From: Arenicola marina
Lineage: Eukaryota; Annelida; Polychaeta; Arenicolidae
Length of the DNA: 64,000 nucleotides
Reading direction: 5' to 3'
NCBI GenBank assembly: GCA_964019135.1
Contig: OZ025261.1
Span: 28,194,029 to 28,258,028, forward strand
The notes beneath the pieces were generated by a model. The model was given only the letters and a program-made list of their open reading frames with translations, did not search any database and was not told the DNA's origin. Made by a program: the position numbers and the translations under genes. Shown here piece after piece: positions 616 through 48,555 of this stretch. Position 1 is the stretch's first letter; each line of letters begins with the position of its first letter.

Positions 616-759
616 AGATATTTCAAGTTGGTTAACCCGGCGAAGGCATCCTCAGGTATGTATTCCACAAGGTTGCGAGACAAGGTCAAATCCTTCAGCT
701 TGGTGAGCCCCCAGAAAGGTCGACCGACAAGTGACGTCAGATCGTTGTTTCCCAGATTT
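616..759 (-). CDS. LGR type-B receptor, exon 11 (two LRRs)
   Basis: Internal exon of a leucine-rich-repeat G-protein-coupled receptor, extracellular ligand-binding region. It is 144 bp. Acceptor ATATTCAG precedes 759 and donor GTGAGT follows 616. It starts on the third base of a codon and ends on the first two bases of a Leu codon. It encodes two 24-residue LRRs with LxxNxL cores, the second containing [19 protein letters not shown]. This matches the vertebrate LGR4 segment where two LRRs follow the short PSF..C repeat, roughly LRR14-15 of 17. The next exons (remaining LRRs, hinge, seven transmembrane helices) would lie beyond the window's left end. A 21-bp minisatellite starts about 25 bp upstream of the acceptor. 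The exon is inferred from splice signals and homology, not transcript data. Confidence 0.9.
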
Positions 760-15177: not shown

Positions 15178-16495
15178 ATTGTATAATCAGGACACTATAA
15201 CCAATTCCGGTCAATGGGAGAAGGAAGGGAAGAGCTGGTCATATCGCGTCAATGGGAGAAGGAAAGGAAGAGCTGGTCATATCGCGTCAATGGGAGAAGG
15301 AAGGGAAGAGCTGGTCATATCGCGTCAATGGGAGAAGGAAGGGAAGAGCTGGTCATATCGCGTCAATAGGAGAAGGTAGGGAAGAGCTGGTTATATCGCG
15401 TCAATGGGAGAAGGAAGGGAAGAGCTGGTCATATCGCTTCAATGGGAGAAGGAAGGGAAGAGCTGGTCATATCGCGTCAATGGGAGAAGGAAGGGAAGAG
15501 CTGGTCATATCGCGTCAATGGGAGAAGGAAGGGAAGAGCTGGTCATATCGCGTCAATGGGAGAAGGAAGGGAAGAGCTGGTCATATCGCGTCAATGGGAG
15601 AAGGAAGGGAAGAGCTGGTCATATCGCGTCAATGGGAGAAGGAAGGGAAGAGCTGGTCATATCGCGTCGATGGGAGAAGGAAGGGAAGAGCTGGTCATAT
15701 CGCGTCAATGGGAGAAGGAAGGGAAGAGCTGGTCATATCGCGTCAATGGCAGAAGAAAGGGAAGAGCTGGTCATATCGCGTCAATGGGAGAAGGAAGGGA
15801 AGAGCTGGTCATATCGCGTCAATGGGAGAAGGAAGGGAAGAGCTGGTCATATCGCGTCAATGGGAGAAGGAAGGGAAGAGCTGGTCATATCGCGTCAATG
15901 GCAGAAGAAAGGGAAGAGCTGGTCATATCGCGTCAATGGGAGAAGGAAGGGAAGAGCTGGTCATATCGCGTCAATGGGAGAAGGAAGGGAAGAGCTGGTC
16001 ATATCGCGTCAATGGGAGAAGGAAGGGAAAAGCTGGTCATATCGCGTCAATGGGAGAAGGAAGGGAAGAGCTGGTCATATCGCCTCAATGGGAGAAGGAA
16101 TGGAAGAGCTGGTCATATCGCCTCAATGGGAGAAGGAAGGGAAGAGCTGGTCATATCGCGTCAATGGGAGAAGGAAGGGAAGAGCTGGTCAAATCCCATC
16201 AATGGGAGAAGGAAGGGAAGAGCTGGTCATATCGCGTCAATGGGAGAAGGAAGGGAAGAGCTGGTCAAATCGCGTCAATGGGAGAAGGAAGGGAAGAGCT
16301 GGTCATATCGCCTCAATGGGAGAAGGAAGGGAAGAGCTGGTCATATCGCCTCAAAGGGAGCAGGAAGGGAAGTGCTTGTCATATCGCGTCAATGGGGGAA
16401 GGAAGGAAGGGATGAGTAAAGCCATGTCACCGGGGTAACCCCCGTCTCTTTGCGAAGAAGAACAGGGGATCTTTATCCTGCGACCACACTTGGAC
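15178..16495 (-). mobile_element. SINE-A split by an internal minisatellite
   Basis: Both ends of a minus-strand SINE-A flank the 38-bp array. The low-coordinate end has the SINE 3' part (TATAATCAGGACACTATAAC, compare tail ATATTCAGGACGCTTTAACC). The high-coordinate end has the central body (CACCGGGGTAACCCCCGTCT, TTTGCGAAGAAGAACAGGGGATC, TTTATCCTGCGACCACAC). The internal segment TCATATCGCGTCAATGGGAG, present once in normal copies, is the segment that was multiplied. Confidence 0.85.
15212..16405. repeat. 38-bp minisatellite derived from SINE-A
   Basis: About 31 units of TCATATCGCGTCAATGGGAG followed by AAGGAAGGGAAGAGCTGG. A variant with GGCAGAAGAAAGG occurs at 15749 and 15901, exactly four units apart, so blocks as well as single units were duplicated. 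Open frames of 300-390 codons through the array are by-products. Intron 8, about 620 bp beyond the exon 8 donor. Confidence 0.97.
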
Positions 16496-17023: not shown

Positions 17024-17167
17024 AGGTTTTCCAGCAGCGGTAGGTTGGCCAGCGCCCCATAGGCCACGGATGAAATGGGATTACTCTTCAGTCGCAGCAC
17101 CTTTAACCCTTTATTGCCTGAGAAGCTGTAGTCAGGTAAGTAAGCAATGTCATTCTCCGACATGGTT
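17024..17167 (-). CDS. LGR type-B receptor, exon 8 (two LRRs)
   Basis: Exon of 144 bp, acceptor TTTCCACAG before 17167 and donor GTAAGT after 17024, with the common phase. It encodes two 24-residue repeats: SENDIAYLPDYSFSGNKGL and LKSNPISSVAYGALANLPLL. Vertebrate LGR4/5 have the matching 144-bp unit with HSNxIxxIP..AF.GNP.L and YDNP..FVG.SAF..L; the GN in the first repeat and the NP in the second are kept. In the mature receptor this is extracellular LRR9-10. A MITE ends 44 bp past the donor, with the SINE-derived minisatellite beyond it. Exon call from splice signals, phase and family match. Confidence 0.93.
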
Positions 17168-20324: not shown

Positions 20325-20396
20325 AATACTGTAAGTGCCTGCAGACCGTCGAAGGCATGTAGATCTATGGTGGTGATCCTATTATCGTTCAGTAAT
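20325..20396 (-). CDS. LGR type-B receptor, exon 6 (one LRR)
   Basis: Exon of 72 bp; acceptor CGTTGCAG before 20396 and donor GTGAGT after 20325, with the common phase. It encodes one 24-residue repeat, LLNDNRITTIDLHAFDGLQA then LTVL. It corresponds to LGR4/5 HLHNN.I.SL...CFDGL..LETL: the FDGL match and the aliphatic positions fit, while the family cysteine before FDGL is Ala here. Extracellular LRR7. It lies between a 1.55-kb and a 5.6-kb intron. Confidence 0.9.
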
Positions 20397-22205: not shown

Positions 22206-22457
22206 GGGCCGGCCTGGTAGCTCAGTGGGCTAGAGCGCTCGCATTAAGTTCTCTGGTCACCCGAGAGCCTAACCACAAGTGGATCGGTGGTTCGCGCCCC
22301 GCTGTGGTCATGGCTGTGTGGTCACAGGATAAAGACTCCGTGTCCTTCTTCGGAAAGAGTAGGGGGTTACCCCGGGGCCATGGCCCCGCGCTTCCCTTCC
22401 TTCTCCCATTGACGCGACACGACCAGAATTGGTTAAAACGTCCTGAATACACAACCA
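22206..22457 (+). mobile_element. SINE-A, near full length
   Basis: A tRNA-like head with A box (GGTAGCTCAGTGGGCTAGAG) and degenerate B box (GGTTCGCGCCCC) is followed by the SINE body (ACAGGATAAAGACTCCGTGT, CTTCTTCGGAAAGAGTA, GGTTACCCCGGGGCCATGG, TTGACGCGACACGACC) and the tail GGTTAAAACGTCCTGAATAC ACAACCA. It derives from a tRNA but is not a functional tRNA gene, because the head runs straight into the SINE body. Confidence 0.9.
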
Positions 22458-22841
22458 TCCGTTGCGGGCGACGGCGGGACGGCTTAGACTGGCGGTTGGC
22501 ACACCACCGGCTACCAGCTACCGGACAATAGCGGAGGCCCAGAGAGGCTTAATCGTGTCTAAAGCGGAGCTTACCCTATATATATTACTGGCTACAGGCC
22601 ACACGGCAATTCACGTCTCGCGTGCCTGGCCAGAACTTAGGAAAGGTCACGCAATTCCACTGAGTTGGTTTTAGTTCTCCGGATCAGATTATAGCGGGAG
22701 GTCGGAAGTAAATGAGTCGGTAAGAGTTATGAAGGAAACCAGTCTCAGCCACGGGATACAATGGACATTTCGTGCTTCCGATATAGCCTTGGCCCCAGCC
22801 CCTGTATGCTACAACACGCAGTGCCTTCCTTGGAGTATTGG

Positions 22842-23097
22842 GTCGGACAGGTAGCTCAGTGGGCTAGAGCGCTCGCCTTGAGTGCTCTGGCCACCTAAGA
22901 GCCTAACGGCGCGTGGATCGGTGGTTCGAGTCCCGCTGTGGCCATGTCTGTATGGTCGTAGGAAAAAAACCCATGTCCTTCTTCGCAAAGAGTAGGCGGT
23001 TACCCCGGCGGACAAGGCTCCACTCTCCTTTCCTTCTCCCATTGACGCGATATGACCAAAAAAGTGGTTAAAACATCCTGAATATACAACCAACCAA
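22842..23097 (+). mobile_element. SINE-A, full length with 14-bp target duplication
   Basis: The best copy: A box TAGCTCAGTGGGCTAGAG, B box GGTTCGAGTCCC, body (GTCCTTCTTCGCAAAGAGTA, GGTTACCCCGGCGGACAAGG, TTGACGCGATATGACC) and tail ATATACAACCAACCAA. It is flanked by a perfect 14-bp duplication CCTTGGAGTATTGG (22828-22841, 23098-23111), as expected for LINE-driven insertion. The intact boxes and perfect duplication suggest a fairly recent insertion. Confidence 0.95.
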
Positions 23098-23111
23098 CCT
23101 TGGAGTATTGG

Positions 23112-24374
23112 CATGGCATTCATGCCATTCAAAGATATCCGTGTATGGTTCCCCTGGCGTCGAAATATGGCACATACACAATTATTGTAACAATTAGGGA
23201 CATTGGACTATACTCAGTATAATGGTTAATTGAATTTAAATAATTTAAGAGTATCAGAGTCATATCAGAGCTAGTATGACATTTGTACATTTAAGTAAGG
23301 CATCTTGATGAATATTTTACATTAGCCTATAATTGGTACTTCTTTAGTAGCCAGTCGTTGGGCTCGGTTACCCTCTCTTTGTTTCATTACATTTGTTCCT
23401 GCATCCACCTGTTTCCTTTTTGTCTGGAAACATAATGTTTTATGCTTCCTGTTTCATGTCAGAACTTGATGGCTGCAGATGGTTTCAGACGAGTCTGGGT
23501 AGCCTCACCCCCACCCCATCCCCCCATCCCTCAACTACCCTACAATGCTATTCTGCCATTATACCACCCTGCCACTCCGTCTCTCAAACCCCAACGCTAC
23601 ACCCCCCCCCCCCCCACCCCCCACCCCTAAATAGTCTGGGTGGCCCAGCGTTGATGTCTTCGAGTCACTCCTGCAGCAAGGACCTTTTGGCACATTGCTT
23701 ACAGACGAGATCATGCGAAACGGCTGCATTATATCACAGCATTAACGTTATGACATGCTATCCAACTGAGACCCTTTTCCGGTTTCTGCTTCATCTGCAC
23801 TTCAATTGTTTTACGCTGATTTGCTGTGATGACCGACAGAGGAATATAGGTAGGGAGAGAGCACATACAGGAACATACCCCCCCCCCCCCCCCGTCTCCA
23901 ACACAAACCCCCTATCCCTCCTGCTCGATGCCTCCATCTCCCTCCGTGACCTGCATCCCCACCCCTGACTTCATAAAGGCATTGACCCTTTCACCGGCGG
24001 CGGAGATTGCAACAGACCAACAATAGGCCAGCAGCAAATCTGTACCCTGCGTGCCATTAGCCCCATGTAGTTTCATCCTGGGCAACCGAACAAATGTTCA
24101 GATAAGGCAAAGGCCACCCCAACAGCTGGGGTAGTGTGTGAGGCAGGTTTGGCGTTGGATATAATTCTTCAGGGGAGTCAGTAAAACATAGAACATCAAT
24201 CCATTACCGAAGAGCATTTGGCCGCAATGTGAGAATAAAATTGGGGTAATAATAATTTCATGAGAATCTCAATAAAGTCGACCCTGTCAGGAATCTGGTC
24301 TGGTTGGATAACGCAGGAAATACGACGTGGTATCTCGCGAGGTAGAATAATACACCGTTCCCCACTCTGACATT
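23112..24374. other. Intron 5, unassigned
   Basis: No exon is recognised. C-rich tracts at 23500-23635 and 23875-23955 give spurious frames; the rest is AT-rich unique-looking sequence. Confidence 0.4.
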
Positions 24375-26014: not shown

Positions 26015-26086
26015 AAAACGCTGAGGTTGGACATGTTCCGGAAGGCGTAATTCGGGACGCTCCCGATGTGGTTAACTGCCAACGTC
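26015..26086 (-). CDS. LGR type-B receptor, exon 5 (TLAxN LRR)
   Basis: Exon of 72 bp; acceptor GTTCTTCCAG before 26086 and donor GTAAGT after 26015, with the common phase. It encodes TLAVNHIGSVPNYAFRNMSN then LSVL. Vertebrate LGR4/5 read TLALNKI..IPD.AF.NLSSLVVL at this position, so the TLA-N start, the P-YAF-N core and the ending all match. NMS and NLS are possible N-glycosylation sites. Extracellular LRR6. The acceptor and first exon bases are duplicated once, 72 bp upstream. Confidence 0.93.
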
Positions 26087-26184
26087 CTGGAAGAACAACA
26101 GTGTACACGTCTGGAATTATAGTATACACAGCTAACTGTGTGGTTAAGTGCCAACATCCTGGAAGAACAACAGTGTACGCGTCT
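26069..26184. repeat. Duplicated exon 5 acceptor segment (72-bp offset)
   Basis: About 46 bp at 26069-26112, covering the first exon bases and the acceptor CCAG, recur at 26141-26184 with three or four differences. On the minus strand the upstream copy also reads TTGTTCTTCCAGGATGTTGG, giving a second potential acceptor AG. The offset is exactly 72 bp, one LRR exon length, though the copied piece is not a complete exon. Confidence 0.85.
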
Positions 26185-26210
26185 GTACACAGTGCGTAGC
26201 TGCAAGTAGG

Positions 26211-26802
26211 GGTACTTACAGGCCCTCCACATTGCTGGCATACACCAAGGCTTCTACTGGGTGGGTGGGTGTACTTACAGGCCCTCCACATTGCTGGCAT
26301 ACACCAAGGCTTCTACTGGGGTGGGGTGTACTTACAGGCCCTCCACATTGCTGGCATACACCAGGGCTTCTACTGGGTGGGGTGTACTTACAGGCCCTCC
26401 ACATTGCTGGCATACACCAAGGCTTCTACTGGGTGGGTGGGTGTACTTACAGGCCCTCCACATTGCTGGCATACACCAAGGCTTCTACTGGATGGGTGGG
26501 TGTACTTACAGGCCCTCCACATTGCTGGCATACACCAAGGCTTCTACTGGAGAGGGTGGGTGTACTTACAGGCACTCCACATTGCTGGCATACACCAAGG
26601 CTTCTACTGGGGGGGGGGGTGTACTTACAGGCCCACCACATTGCTGGCATACACCAAGGCTTCTACTGGGTGGGTGGGGTGTACTTACAGGCCCTCCACA
26701 TTGCTGGCATACACCAGGGCTTCTACTGGGTGGGGTGTACTTACAGGACCTCCACATTGCTGGAATACACCAGGGCTTCTACTGGGGGGGGGGTGTACTT
26801 AC
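26211..26802. repeat. Minisatellite of exon 4 3' ends and 5' splice sites
   Basis: Ten contiguous units of 56-61 bp. On the minus strand each reads C-rich tract, CAG, then GAAGCCTTGGTGTATGCCAG, CAATGTGGAGGGCCT, then GTAAGTAC. That is the final about 36 bases of exon 4 plus its donor. Every unit keeps a consensus GTAAGT, and the C-tract plus CAG resembles an acceptor. Exonic bases differ at only one or two sites per unit, while the C/G tract varies in length. The frame reads TAA directly after each donor. Confidence 0.95.
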
Positions 26803-26946
26803 AGGCCCTCTACATTGCTGGCATACACCAGGGCTTCTACGGGGACTTGTCTCAGCTTGTTGGAGTCGAGCCAGAGGTGTTTCAGAGACCGTGCCCCACG
26901 GAAACTATCGGCCGGGACAGAATCAATCCGATTTGATTCAAGATGT
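26803..26946 (-). CDS. LGR type-B receptor, exon 4 (two LRRs, HLWLD motif)
   Basis: Exon of 144 bp; acceptor TATTCCAG before 26946 and donor GTAAGT after 26803, with the common phase. It encodes HLESNRIDSVPADSFRG in the first repeat and LKHLWLDSNKLRQVPVEAL, ending NVEGL, in the second. LGR4/5/6 have a 144-bp exon here with the strongly conserved L(R)HLWLDDN.LTE.PV, which this matches. Extracellular LRR4-5. Its last about 36 bases and donor are repeated ten more times downstream. The first donor gives the intact frame; using any later donor would include a TAA stop. Intron 3 upstream is 20 kb. The start was chosen at the AG that preserves phase and the 48-codon length. Confidence 0.95.
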
Positions 26947-27019: not shown

Positions 27020-27345
27020 TCAATAAACTAAATCTCAATAACGTGAACCGCAATAAAGTGAACCTCAATGAAGTGAACCTCAATGAAGTGAACCTCAGTG
27101 AAGTGAACCGCAGTGAAGTGAACCTCAGTGAAGTGAACCTCAGTGAAGTGAACCTCAATAAAGTGAAGCTCAGGGAAGTGAACCTCAATGAAATGAACCG
27201 CAATAAAGTGAACCTCAATGAAGTGAACCTCAGTGAAGTGAACCTCAGTGAAGTGAAGCTGAATCAAGTGAAGCTCAATGCAGTGAACCTCAATGCAGTG
27301 AACCTCAATGAAGTGAATCGCAATGAATTGAACCTAAATAGAAAT
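27020..27345. repeat. 15-bp minisatellite, about 21 copies
   Basis: Units of GTGAACCTCAATGAA with A/G and AA/CG changes. The 15-bp period keeps frames open on both strands (NLNEV-type and HFIEV-type pentads). The array sits about 75 bp upstream of the exon 4 acceptor in intron 3. Confidence 0.95.
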
Positions 27346-27520
27346 GACTTCGTTGCATAGATATAGAAATGACGTTTGAATAGATATAGAAATGACCGTA
27401 TTTCATAGATATAGAAATGAGTACATTGCATAGATATAGAAATGACTATTTCATAGATATAGGAATGATTATATTTCATAGATATAGGAATTACTACATT
27501 GCATAGATATAAAAATGACA
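27346..27520. repeat. About 26-bp minisatellite
   Basis: Six or seven units of ATAGATATAGAAATGACT with TTCATAG or TTGCATAG spacers, directly following the 15-bp array. Confidence 0.9.
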
Positions 27521-28084: not shown

Positions 28085-29205
28085 AAAGCAAGTTGCAAGA
28101 TACATACTTCCAGAAAATATTTAGGTATCATATTTTCTTCTAAATTGATGTGGTCTGTTGCTCAAATGACTCTCGCTTCCCAAGCGAGTAAAGCAGTGAC
28201 ATTATTAAAGAAATTTCAAAAAACTGTGGTGGTTTGAAGGTAGAGACATATTTTGATCTCTTTGACAAAATGATAGAACCCATTCTTACATACGGTGCAG
28301 AAGTTTGGGGTTATGATGTCAAAGATTGTATAAAACGTGTGCACACGAAATTTTGTAAAAATGTCTTGGGCGTACCATGGAGTACACCAAATTCAGCGGT
28401 TTATGGTGAGTGTGGTAGATTACCTTTAAGGGTAAGGTGTACAATTAGTTGTGTTAACAACTGCGTGAAATTGTTAAGAATGCCTGAAACCAGACTTACG
28501 AAATGTACTTACAATATGTTATTTAGGCTGACAGAGGCTGGTCGTATGACCTGGGTTTCTAAACTCAAGCACTTACTTTTCTCTTATGGATTCGGCTATG
28601 CCTGGTTTCAGCAACAACTTGGAGATCCTGAGGCCTTTATTGAACAATTTTCCAAAAGGGTAATTGACTGCGCTTACCAGAACTGGCAGAGTAAGACAGA
28701 CCTGATGAATTGTAAAGAATATAAGAAGTTGCTCATACGCGAACCATACTTGTGTCTTCTCGAGGATTTCAGACTACGGCAGATCTTAGCCAGATTCAGA
28801 TGTAGGGTGCTATGGACAAGTTCGTACTGCAGGGGAGAAAACTCTATCTGTAAATATTGCTTACAACATGAAACTATTTCTTCTCTTGACGAGTTCGATA
28901 GTTTAATGAAATGCCCATTGTATGACAATCTCCGCAATAATTATTTTCCTACAAGATATTTAACGACATATGATATTAGGAGTTTTTTTATGTATTATGA
29001 CTTCCGAGGAAAAAAACAGGTTTAATCTCATTAGCAAGGTTTATAGAAAAAACATTCACTATGTATGAAAAAAGGTTTAGCCTAATTCTCTCTAATTAAC
29101 TAAGTTTGTTCTAGTCGGTTGCATGTTATTTTTGTGTTCTGTATTTGTACGAGGGGCCTGGTGCCTGAAGTTACCAATAAACTATCAATCTATCTATCTA
29201 CTTCC
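28085..29205 (+). mobile_element. LINE 3' fragment (reverse transcriptase C-terminal part)
   Basis: Non-LTR retrotransposon remnant. KYLGIIFSSKLMWS (28113 on) is the end of the reverse transcriptase domain. After a frame break near 28225 an open frame continues to 29025 with ETYFDLFDKMIEPILTYGAE, VWGY, LRVRCTISCVNN, then a zinc-knuckle-like C-K-Y-C with CPLYD downstream. This layout (thumb motif, long C-terminal region, terminal Cys/His motif) is common in Jockey/CR1/I-type LINEs; the clade is not assigned. It is 5'-truncated, lacks endonuclease, and ends in ATCTATCTATCTA (29189-29201), a typical simple-repeat tail. The long open frame has no ATG at its start. It is not a host gene. Confidence 0.85.
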
Positions 29206-47314: not shown

Positions 47315-47386
47315 AGTTGCTGTAGTCGTTCCAAGTCTTGAAAGGCCGCAACCGGAATAGTGGTGAAGTCATTCTGCTGAAGTTGT
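47315..47386 (-). CDS. LGR type-B receptor, exon 3 (one LRR)
   Basis: Exon of 72 bp; acceptor CCGTTTCAG before 47386 and donor GTGAGT after 47315, with the common phase. It encodes QLQQNDFTTIPVAAFQDLER then LQQL, one standard 24-residue LRR. The matching LGR4/5 exon reads TLQNNQL.TVPSEAI.GL..LQSL. Extracellular LRR3. Intron 3, downstream on the minus strand, is the 20-kb repeat-filled intron; intron 2, upstream, is only 1.1 kb. A 15-bp perfect inverted repeat lies about 80 bp upstream of the acceptor. Confidence 0.88.
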
Positions 47387-48483: not shown

Positions 48484-48555
48484 AGATCGTGCAGCTCAGC
48501 CATCCCCGTGAAGGTATGCGGCGGAAGCGTAGACAGGCGATTAGAGGCCAGATGC
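48484..48555 (-). CDS. LGR type-B receptor, exon 2 (first LRR exon seen)
   Basis: Exon of 72 bp; acceptor TTTCCTTGCAG before 48555 and donor GTGAGT after 48484, with the common phase. It encodes HLASNRLSTLPPHTFTGMAE then LHDL. It matches LGR4/5 exon 2 (QLAGNDL.FI...AL.GL..LKVL). Extracellular LRR2. The exon carrying the signal peptide, the cysteine-rich LRRNT cap and LRR1 should lie upstream, at higher coordinates; I found none up to 64000, so intron 1 is probably longer than 15 kb, or that exon is too divergent to see. Confidence 0.88.

Follow-up and report, generated by a model that had tools for sequence, protein, structure and literature searches.

A tandem array of exon-intron junction copies, probably of the splice-junction 'mirage' type, in an LGR-type receptor gene of the annelid Arenicola marina

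Within a stretch of 64,000 nucleotides of the Arenicola marina genome (G000:C14:28194029-28258028; hereafter, the window), a coding exon on the minus strand is followed by a row of copies of its own 3′ end, each with its 5′ splice site, or donor. The locus raises the question of how such a row arose, and of which among its equal donors would be joined to the next exon. The array, at 26212-26844, was found by TRF with a period of 59, 10.8 copies and 93% matches. Read on the minus strand, the tandem units run across the exon-intron boundary: the last 38 bases of the exon and the donor GTAAGTAC are present in 11 copies, one exonic and ten as intronic decoys. The ten decoy donors of the original prediction are confirmed, the end of the exon itself being the eleventh copy; the repetition of exon end and donor also holds, the piece shared by the copies being 38 nt long and not about 36 as first thought. 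The features of the donor side are as follows:

26803..26946, minus strand: coding exon of 144 nt, phase 2 at either end; encodes two LRRs of an LGR-type receptor
26803..26840, minus strand: copy 0 of the 38-nt repeat piece, within the exon
26795..26802, minus strand: donor GTAAGTAC, judged authentic from the reading frame and the LGR4 alignment
26212..26802, minus strand: intronic array of ten units, each a C-rich tract of 10-14 nt, the 38-nt exon copy and GTAAGTAC, with ten decoy donors

The 38-nt piece (GTAGAAGCC...GGGCCT) shows a few substitutions among the copies, and the pieces are separated by the C-rich tracts of 10-14 nt, with a donor-to-donor spacing of 56-60 bp across the array. The 11 donors lie at 26802, 26744, 26688, 26628, 26569, 26509, 26450, 26391, 26335, 26278 and 26219, out of 13 occurrences of GTAAGTAC on the minus strand of the window, and the junction CCT/GTAAGTAC (the slash marks the boundary) is invariant from -3 to +8 in all 11. 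The array takes up 591 bp of an intron of 716 bp, and the next exon begins 125 bp beyond it. On the exon side the array is flanked by AAGTCCCC/GTAGAAG and on the intron side by GTAAGTACCCC/TACTTG, which are the unexpanded flanks at its two ends; a short, imperfect direct repeat at the AAGTCCCC/GTAAGTACCCC boundaries flanks one unit.

The units have a mean identity of 93%, with unit 2 identical to unit 8 and unit 7 to unit 10, and a C/T difference at unit position 10 is scattered among them. The exonic bases are steadier than the tract, as had been noted earlier (five distinct versions of the exonic part against eight of the tract among the ten units); the tract, however, is a slippage-prone C run, so that the lower exonic variation is no evidence of selection. 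Selection on the exonic part of the units, one of the causes first suggested, finds no support: all four private exonic changes (two in unit 1 and one each in units 3 and 4) are non-synonymous in the exon frame, and the constancy of the decoy donors, with no change in 80 bases, is by our own reckoning about what the exonic rate predicts. Two differences shared by the units relative to the exon are silent in the exon frame. Gene conversion with the exon, also suggested, is without positive evidence: a silent A kept by the exon is missing from all ten units, and hence there is no sign of recent exon-array conversion. A DNA search of one 867-Mb assembly did not find a second haplotype of the array.

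The 48 residues encoded by the 144-nt exon match LGR4 and LGR5 (E 2e-22), in agreement with the earlier view that the units stem from the 3′ end of an exon and its donor. When LRR signatures were sought in phase-2 exons with a length of 72, 144 or 216 nt, ten matches were obtained on the minus strand, of which two were judged to be due to chance; the eight convincing exons comprise seven within the window (48555, 47386, 26946, 26086, 20396, 17167 and 759) and one outside it (91178). Apart from the exon that carries the array and the one that follows it (see below), those within the window are:

48484..48555, minus strand: upstream LRR exon, 72 nt
47315..47386, minus strand: upstream LRR exon, 72 nt
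20325..20396, minus strand: following LRR exon, 72 nt
17024..17167, minus strand: LRR exon, 144 nt
616..759, minus strand: LRR exon, 144 nt

When the first donor is joined to the last acceptor, and the product is joined on to the following exon too, 96 residues are obtained, 93 of which show a gapless alignment with residues 116-208 of the LGR4 PDB chain, running through both junctions. The authentic section of the gene is thus found at one end of the cluster, copy 0 lying in the exon and the LGR4 alignment passing through the first donor. An open frame on the same strand, 15-18 kb past the left end of the window, matches PF00001 (E 7e-12), and the 7TM end that it encodes is nearest to the thyrotropin, LH and FSH receptors; this frame presumably belongs to the gene of the LRR exons. 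The locus therefore shows the features of an LGR gene, namely phase-2 LRR exons in multiples of 72 nt and, given the presumed linkage, a rhodopsin-type 7TM end. As in type A and B LGR receptors, there are 72-nt LRR exons and an LGR4-like ectodomain; unlike in those receptors, two LRRs are packed into a single 144-nt exon at three places. The ectodomain is nearest to LGR4/5, and the 7TM part is nearest to the glycoprotein hormone receptors.

The other end of the same intron is duplicated as well. The 3′ junction is copied over 47 nt exactly 72 nt upstream of the authentic one, in frame, and the 20 nt that precede the exon are identical at the two acceptors:

26159..26219, minus strand: innermost pair of donor and acceptor, 61 nt, perhaps a remnant of the unexpanded intron
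26139..26185, minus strand: second 3′ splice junction (acceptor AG 26160-26159), 44/47 identical to the authentic one
26067..26113, minus strand: authentic copy of the 3′ splice junction (acceptor AG 26088-26087)
26015..26086, minus strand: next coding exon after the array, 72 nt, one LRR (TLAVNHIGSVPNYAFRNMSNLSVL)

If the ten units (583 bp) and the 72-bp copy are subtracted from the 716-bp intron, the 61-nt pair is left, and it may be a remnant of the original intron. At another exon of the gene, a segment of 2.47 kb is triplicated in tandem (window coordinates 91150-98547; 97.6-98.2% identical); the triplication stops 29 nt inside the exon at 91178 and puts two extra acceptor copies upstream of the exon's own. 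Counting the donor array, the 72-nt acceptor copy and the triplication, duplication has reached 3 of the 16 junctions that the eight exons possess, and both kinds of boundary are affected (the donor in 11 copies and the acceptor in two within one intron, and the acceptor in three at 91178). Two further, large minisatellites begin near acceptors and do not cross them, at 27020-27347 (74 nt upstream of exon 26946) and at 810-2244 (51 nt upstream of exon 759). The close downstream exon, the duplicated acceptor and the triplication go beyond the original prediction, as do the similar arrays in chaperonin and myosin genes and the name 'mirage' (see below).

Among the 22 possible pairs of donor and acceptor, only the two that use the first donor are open. 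The TAA that had been pointed out in the exon frame is retained in all 20 decoy combinations: each stops after residue 48, at the TAA contained in the first GTAAGT, and the truncated frame ends in ...SNVEGL followed by the stop. The first donor with the duplicated acceptor would add 24 residues (MLALNHTVSCVYYNSRRVHCCSSR) to the LRR domain, in frame and open. Judging from the reading frame, the LGR4 alignment and the presence of arrays in essential chaperonin genes, the first donor is probably the one used in vivo; its use together with the last acceptor would explain why the array is retained. As far as can be told from the DNA, the receptor most likely gains nothing from the array, which would be spliced away as intron. 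In competition between identical donors in vitro, the intron-proximal one is often favoured, which is the opposite of what use of the first donor needs. It is striking that equal donors, up to more than 20 in a row (see below), must be distinguished by position.

Exon ends of two other gene families were surveyed in the same genome. For the chaperonins (PF00118), 40 of 49 matches were taken with 450 bp on each side, leaving out three that look single-exon (one at C5:36.7 Mb and two on C10) and the six weakest; for the myosins (PF00063), the top 20 of 77 matches were taken with 301 bp per side. Arrays of three or more copies lie across the 3′ side of 5/40 chaperonin and 2/20 myosin matches (7/60 in total, 95% interval 5-23%) and across the 5′ side of 1/40 chaperonin and 0/20 myosin matches (1/60 in total); both totals are rough, because exon ends were taken as the ends of Pfam matches, some of the sampled sides do not fall at a splice junction, and the CCT windows include nine overlapping pairs. 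Junction-spanning arrays thus recur at several genes of the genome, in both CCT and myosin exons. The cases that illustrate the range are:

CCT eta exon L050: six donors GCTCAGG/GTGAGT
CCT eta exon L089 (G000:C17:26059250-26060800): at least 22 donors CTCGAG/GTGAGTGAG in units of about 66 bp
CCT zeta exon: ten donors up to the next match
CCT gamma exon: 13 donors by a loose pattern
Myosin exons L097 and L104: spanning donor arrays
L049: the weakest case, with only about 5 exonic nt and with GTGGGT in later copies, all the others being plain

The L089 array continues to the end of the retrieved stretch. On the 3′ side of the chaperonin matches, where 450 nt were examined, all 11 arrays of two or more copies start at most 90 nt from the match end, and two more rows, each of 1.9 copies, begin at +53 and +209, so that 12 of 13 start within 90 nt; two of the 11 (L072 and L081) come after apparent terminal coding exons and therefore do not adjoin donors. 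In the myosins, the 220 nt examined on the 3′ side contain four arrays, which start no more than about 50 nt from the match end, and on the 5′ side six arrays lie 18-174 nt short of the match start, none of them spanning it. Donor-spanning arrays outnumber acceptor-spanning ones by 7 to 1 in 60 each (Fisher p 0.06); p becomes 0.11 without L049, 0.21 with the looser LGR duplications and 0.16 if an acceptor duplication at L050 is counted (7 versus 2). The latter (oriented 371-454) is a 44-bp duplication of the 3′ end of the intron with its acceptor AG and no exonic part, at the opposite end of the CCT eta exon that has six donors, and its two copies fall below the three-copy cut. The excess of donors over acceptors is not significant and is suggestive only. 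CCT subunits are essential, and correct splicing of the array-bearing introns in their genes must presumably be frequent enough. Of four translated CCT cases, two (L067 and L082) have no stop past the first donor in the coding frame within the stretch read. Several of the myosin matches on C7, C11, C20 and C1 lie in open frames of 1007-1760 aa, far beyond exon length, which are probably stop-free minisatellites beside exons.

Arrays are abundant in this part of the genome. A count of arrays with a period of 10-200 and three or more copies, made in one region of 264 kb around the receptor gene, gave 93 arrays, or 35 per 100 kb, covering 23% of the sequence (32% in the window). With 0.14 array starts expected in the last 50 nt of the eight receptor exons, the probability of at least one is 0.13, and one junction-spanning array in the receptor gene alone is unremarkable. 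For the class as a whole, chance alone is unlikely at the local array density: the 60 sampled exon ends have seven spanning starts against about 1.1 expected (P ~1e-4; six and P 8e-4 without L049), a comparison that rests on the density of the one 264-kb region and on a 50-nt limit picked after the cases had been seen.

Other repeats of the window include a 38-bp array of 31 copies at 15210-16406, the greater part of which is free of stops in each of the three plus-strand frames; pieces similar to its unit (GTCATATCGC, GTCAATGGGAGAAGG) occur at 22222-22548 and 22809-23207, and the array is perhaps a dispersed element turned tandem. The end of a reverse-transcriptase-type ORF is found at 28192-29025, its best named relative being a reverse transcriptase domain protein of Magallana gigas. 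The 200 kb flank contains five runs of N, each of exactly 200 bases (scaffold gaps or masked stretches), and the window contains none.

The best explanation, to which we assign a probability of roughly 85%, is that the locus is a splice-junction minisatellite of the 'mirage' type in an annelid LGR-type gene, formed by tandem duplication of the junction and tolerated through use of the outermost donor and acceptor. The LGR4/5-like exon and the gapless LGR4 alignment over the junctions imply that exon and junction are old and the array derived. A tandem duplication, one of whose breakpoints lay near AAGTCCCC in the exon and the other near AAGTACCCC, a short way into the intron, would have copied the exon end and the donor; ordinary minisatellite turnover could have expanded the array to ten extra units, and the identical pairs of units and the scattered C/T difference do point to internal turnover; and the acceptor end would have been duplicated as a separate event. 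The spliceosome would join the outermost pair, the first donor and the last acceptor, and the array would leave with the intron; the copies could persist because the protein is unchanged while that pair is joined. We infer this mode of birth from the sequence of the array and its flanks. If slippage or unequal exchange seeds a duplication, a direct repeat flanking one unit is to be expected. However, the one found at the breakpoints is short and imperfect, the ancestral intron of 61 nt is a matter of arithmetic only, and in CCT zeta the distance between the last donor and the next exon match is about 1 kb. A broader proposal, according to which in this annelid donors are hotspots of minisatellite birth, a strict first-donor rule lets the upstream-most of tens of identical donors win, and introns grow by stuttering of the 5′ junction while acceptor copies are mostly purged, is tentative, and we hold it to be rather doubtful.

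Each unit had originally been likened to a mini-exon, and in appearance rightly so, since in all ten units the piece is preceded by CAG and followed by GTAAGT and measures 37 nt. That the units really are cassette mini-exons of 37 nt is nevertheless hardly credible: the pseudo-acceptors are poor in T (1-3 T in the 17 nt before CAG, n = 10, against 7-11 at the acceptors of the gene, n = 8), so that, judged by composition, the units lack a usable 3′ splice site; just 21 nt separate the real donor from the first pseudo mini-exon; and inclusion of any single unit leads to a stop at residue 64 (10/10). The identity of all 11 donors and the one truncated frame common to the 20 decoy combinations would suit a regulated poison array, in which the decoys are used at a tuned rate to give a truncated LRR fragment or mRNA decay and copy number sets receptor output. 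We regard this as quite improbable, as donor arrays of the same form are present in chaperonin and myosin genes, where a common regulatory role is unlikely, and the cases of L067 and L082 indicate that a shared stop is no general design.

Use of acceptor 26160-26159 with the first donor, giving an isoform with 24 more residues in the LRR domain, is compatible with the best explanation but in itself unlikely. The identical 20 nt before the exon and the open, in-frame insert of 72 nt speak for such an isoform; against it, the end of the insert, CVYYNSRRVHCCSSR, is not LRR-like, the gapless LGR4 alignment would be broken, and by our own estimate an insert is in frame and open by chance in about 1 case in 10. 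An assembly artefact or an unrelated dispersed satellite might be suspected in a region rich in repeats and with 200-base runs of N outside the window, but we give this next to no weight: the units carry private variants, there is no N in the array, and independent arrays of different sequences are found at other genes. Moreover, the array has a single place in the genome by a DNA search in which very common words were skipped, at odds with the genome-wide satellite that the original prediction had named as its possible undoing. Derivation of the exon from a satellite is rejected on the conserved LGR sequence together with the single genomic place given by that search.

The reading as a duplicated splice junction places the Arenicola arrays, apparently, with the known mirages, in another phylum and as a common feature there. 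Mirages are minisatellite-like tandem duplications of an intron/exon boundary in the Adh3, globin, PGBD5 and TnC genes of amphioxus (PMC3087553, PMC3902484); both types of boundary are involved, many units contain splice signals and copy number differs between haplotypes, and for Adh3 and globin RT-PCR suggested regular splicing, reportedly undisturbed (PMC3087553). The Arenicola array likewise repeats an intron/exon boundary with splice signals in many units; it differs in having one short intron duplicated at both ends and identical donors, and one Arenicola CCT exon has at least 22 copies. The host is an annelid and not a cephalochordate, a distinction that records where mirages were seen and is no structural property. 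Contig C762 (15,942 bp) of the assembly bears mitochondrial genes and rRNA in its first 5,000 bases, and its ND4 shows 72% identity to that of Abarenicola claparedi oceanica and no more than 65% to the rest of the 120 matches listed, which points to an annelid, probably in or close to Arenicolidae, and speaks against amphioxus as the source. In potato, an intron was gained by a boundary-crossing tandem duplication with copied splice signals (PMC4974935). Both duplications cross an intron-exon boundary, but the Arenicola array lengthens an existing intron and no new intron is evident. Human introns, too, are said to have come from tandem arrays, in work by Zhuo in 2007. Variable tandem repeats at human exon-intron boundaries show that minisatellite expansion alters gene structure; they differ in being segmental duplications, with an alternative transcript that keeps the repeat in the exon for 66% of intron modifications (PMC2812944). 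For earthworms, intronic minisatellites and exon-4 duplications absent from transcripts are reported (PMC12783039), as are genome-wide repeat totals (PMC12130307). No annelid report of junction-spanning arrays was found in the open-licence literature.

Mirages are known from amphioxus, and it has been proposed that new introns can arise through them. Their presence at about 1 in 10 of the sampled annelid exon ends, chaperonins included, suggests that they are not peculiar to cephalochordates and can be common. The arrays are natural constructs in which near-identical donors, numbering from about 5 to more than 20, follow one another in genes with a known correct product, and RNA data at such arrays could show how the cell picks among equal 5′ splice sites. 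They also indicate that introns can lengthen without transposons, by duplication of their junctions.
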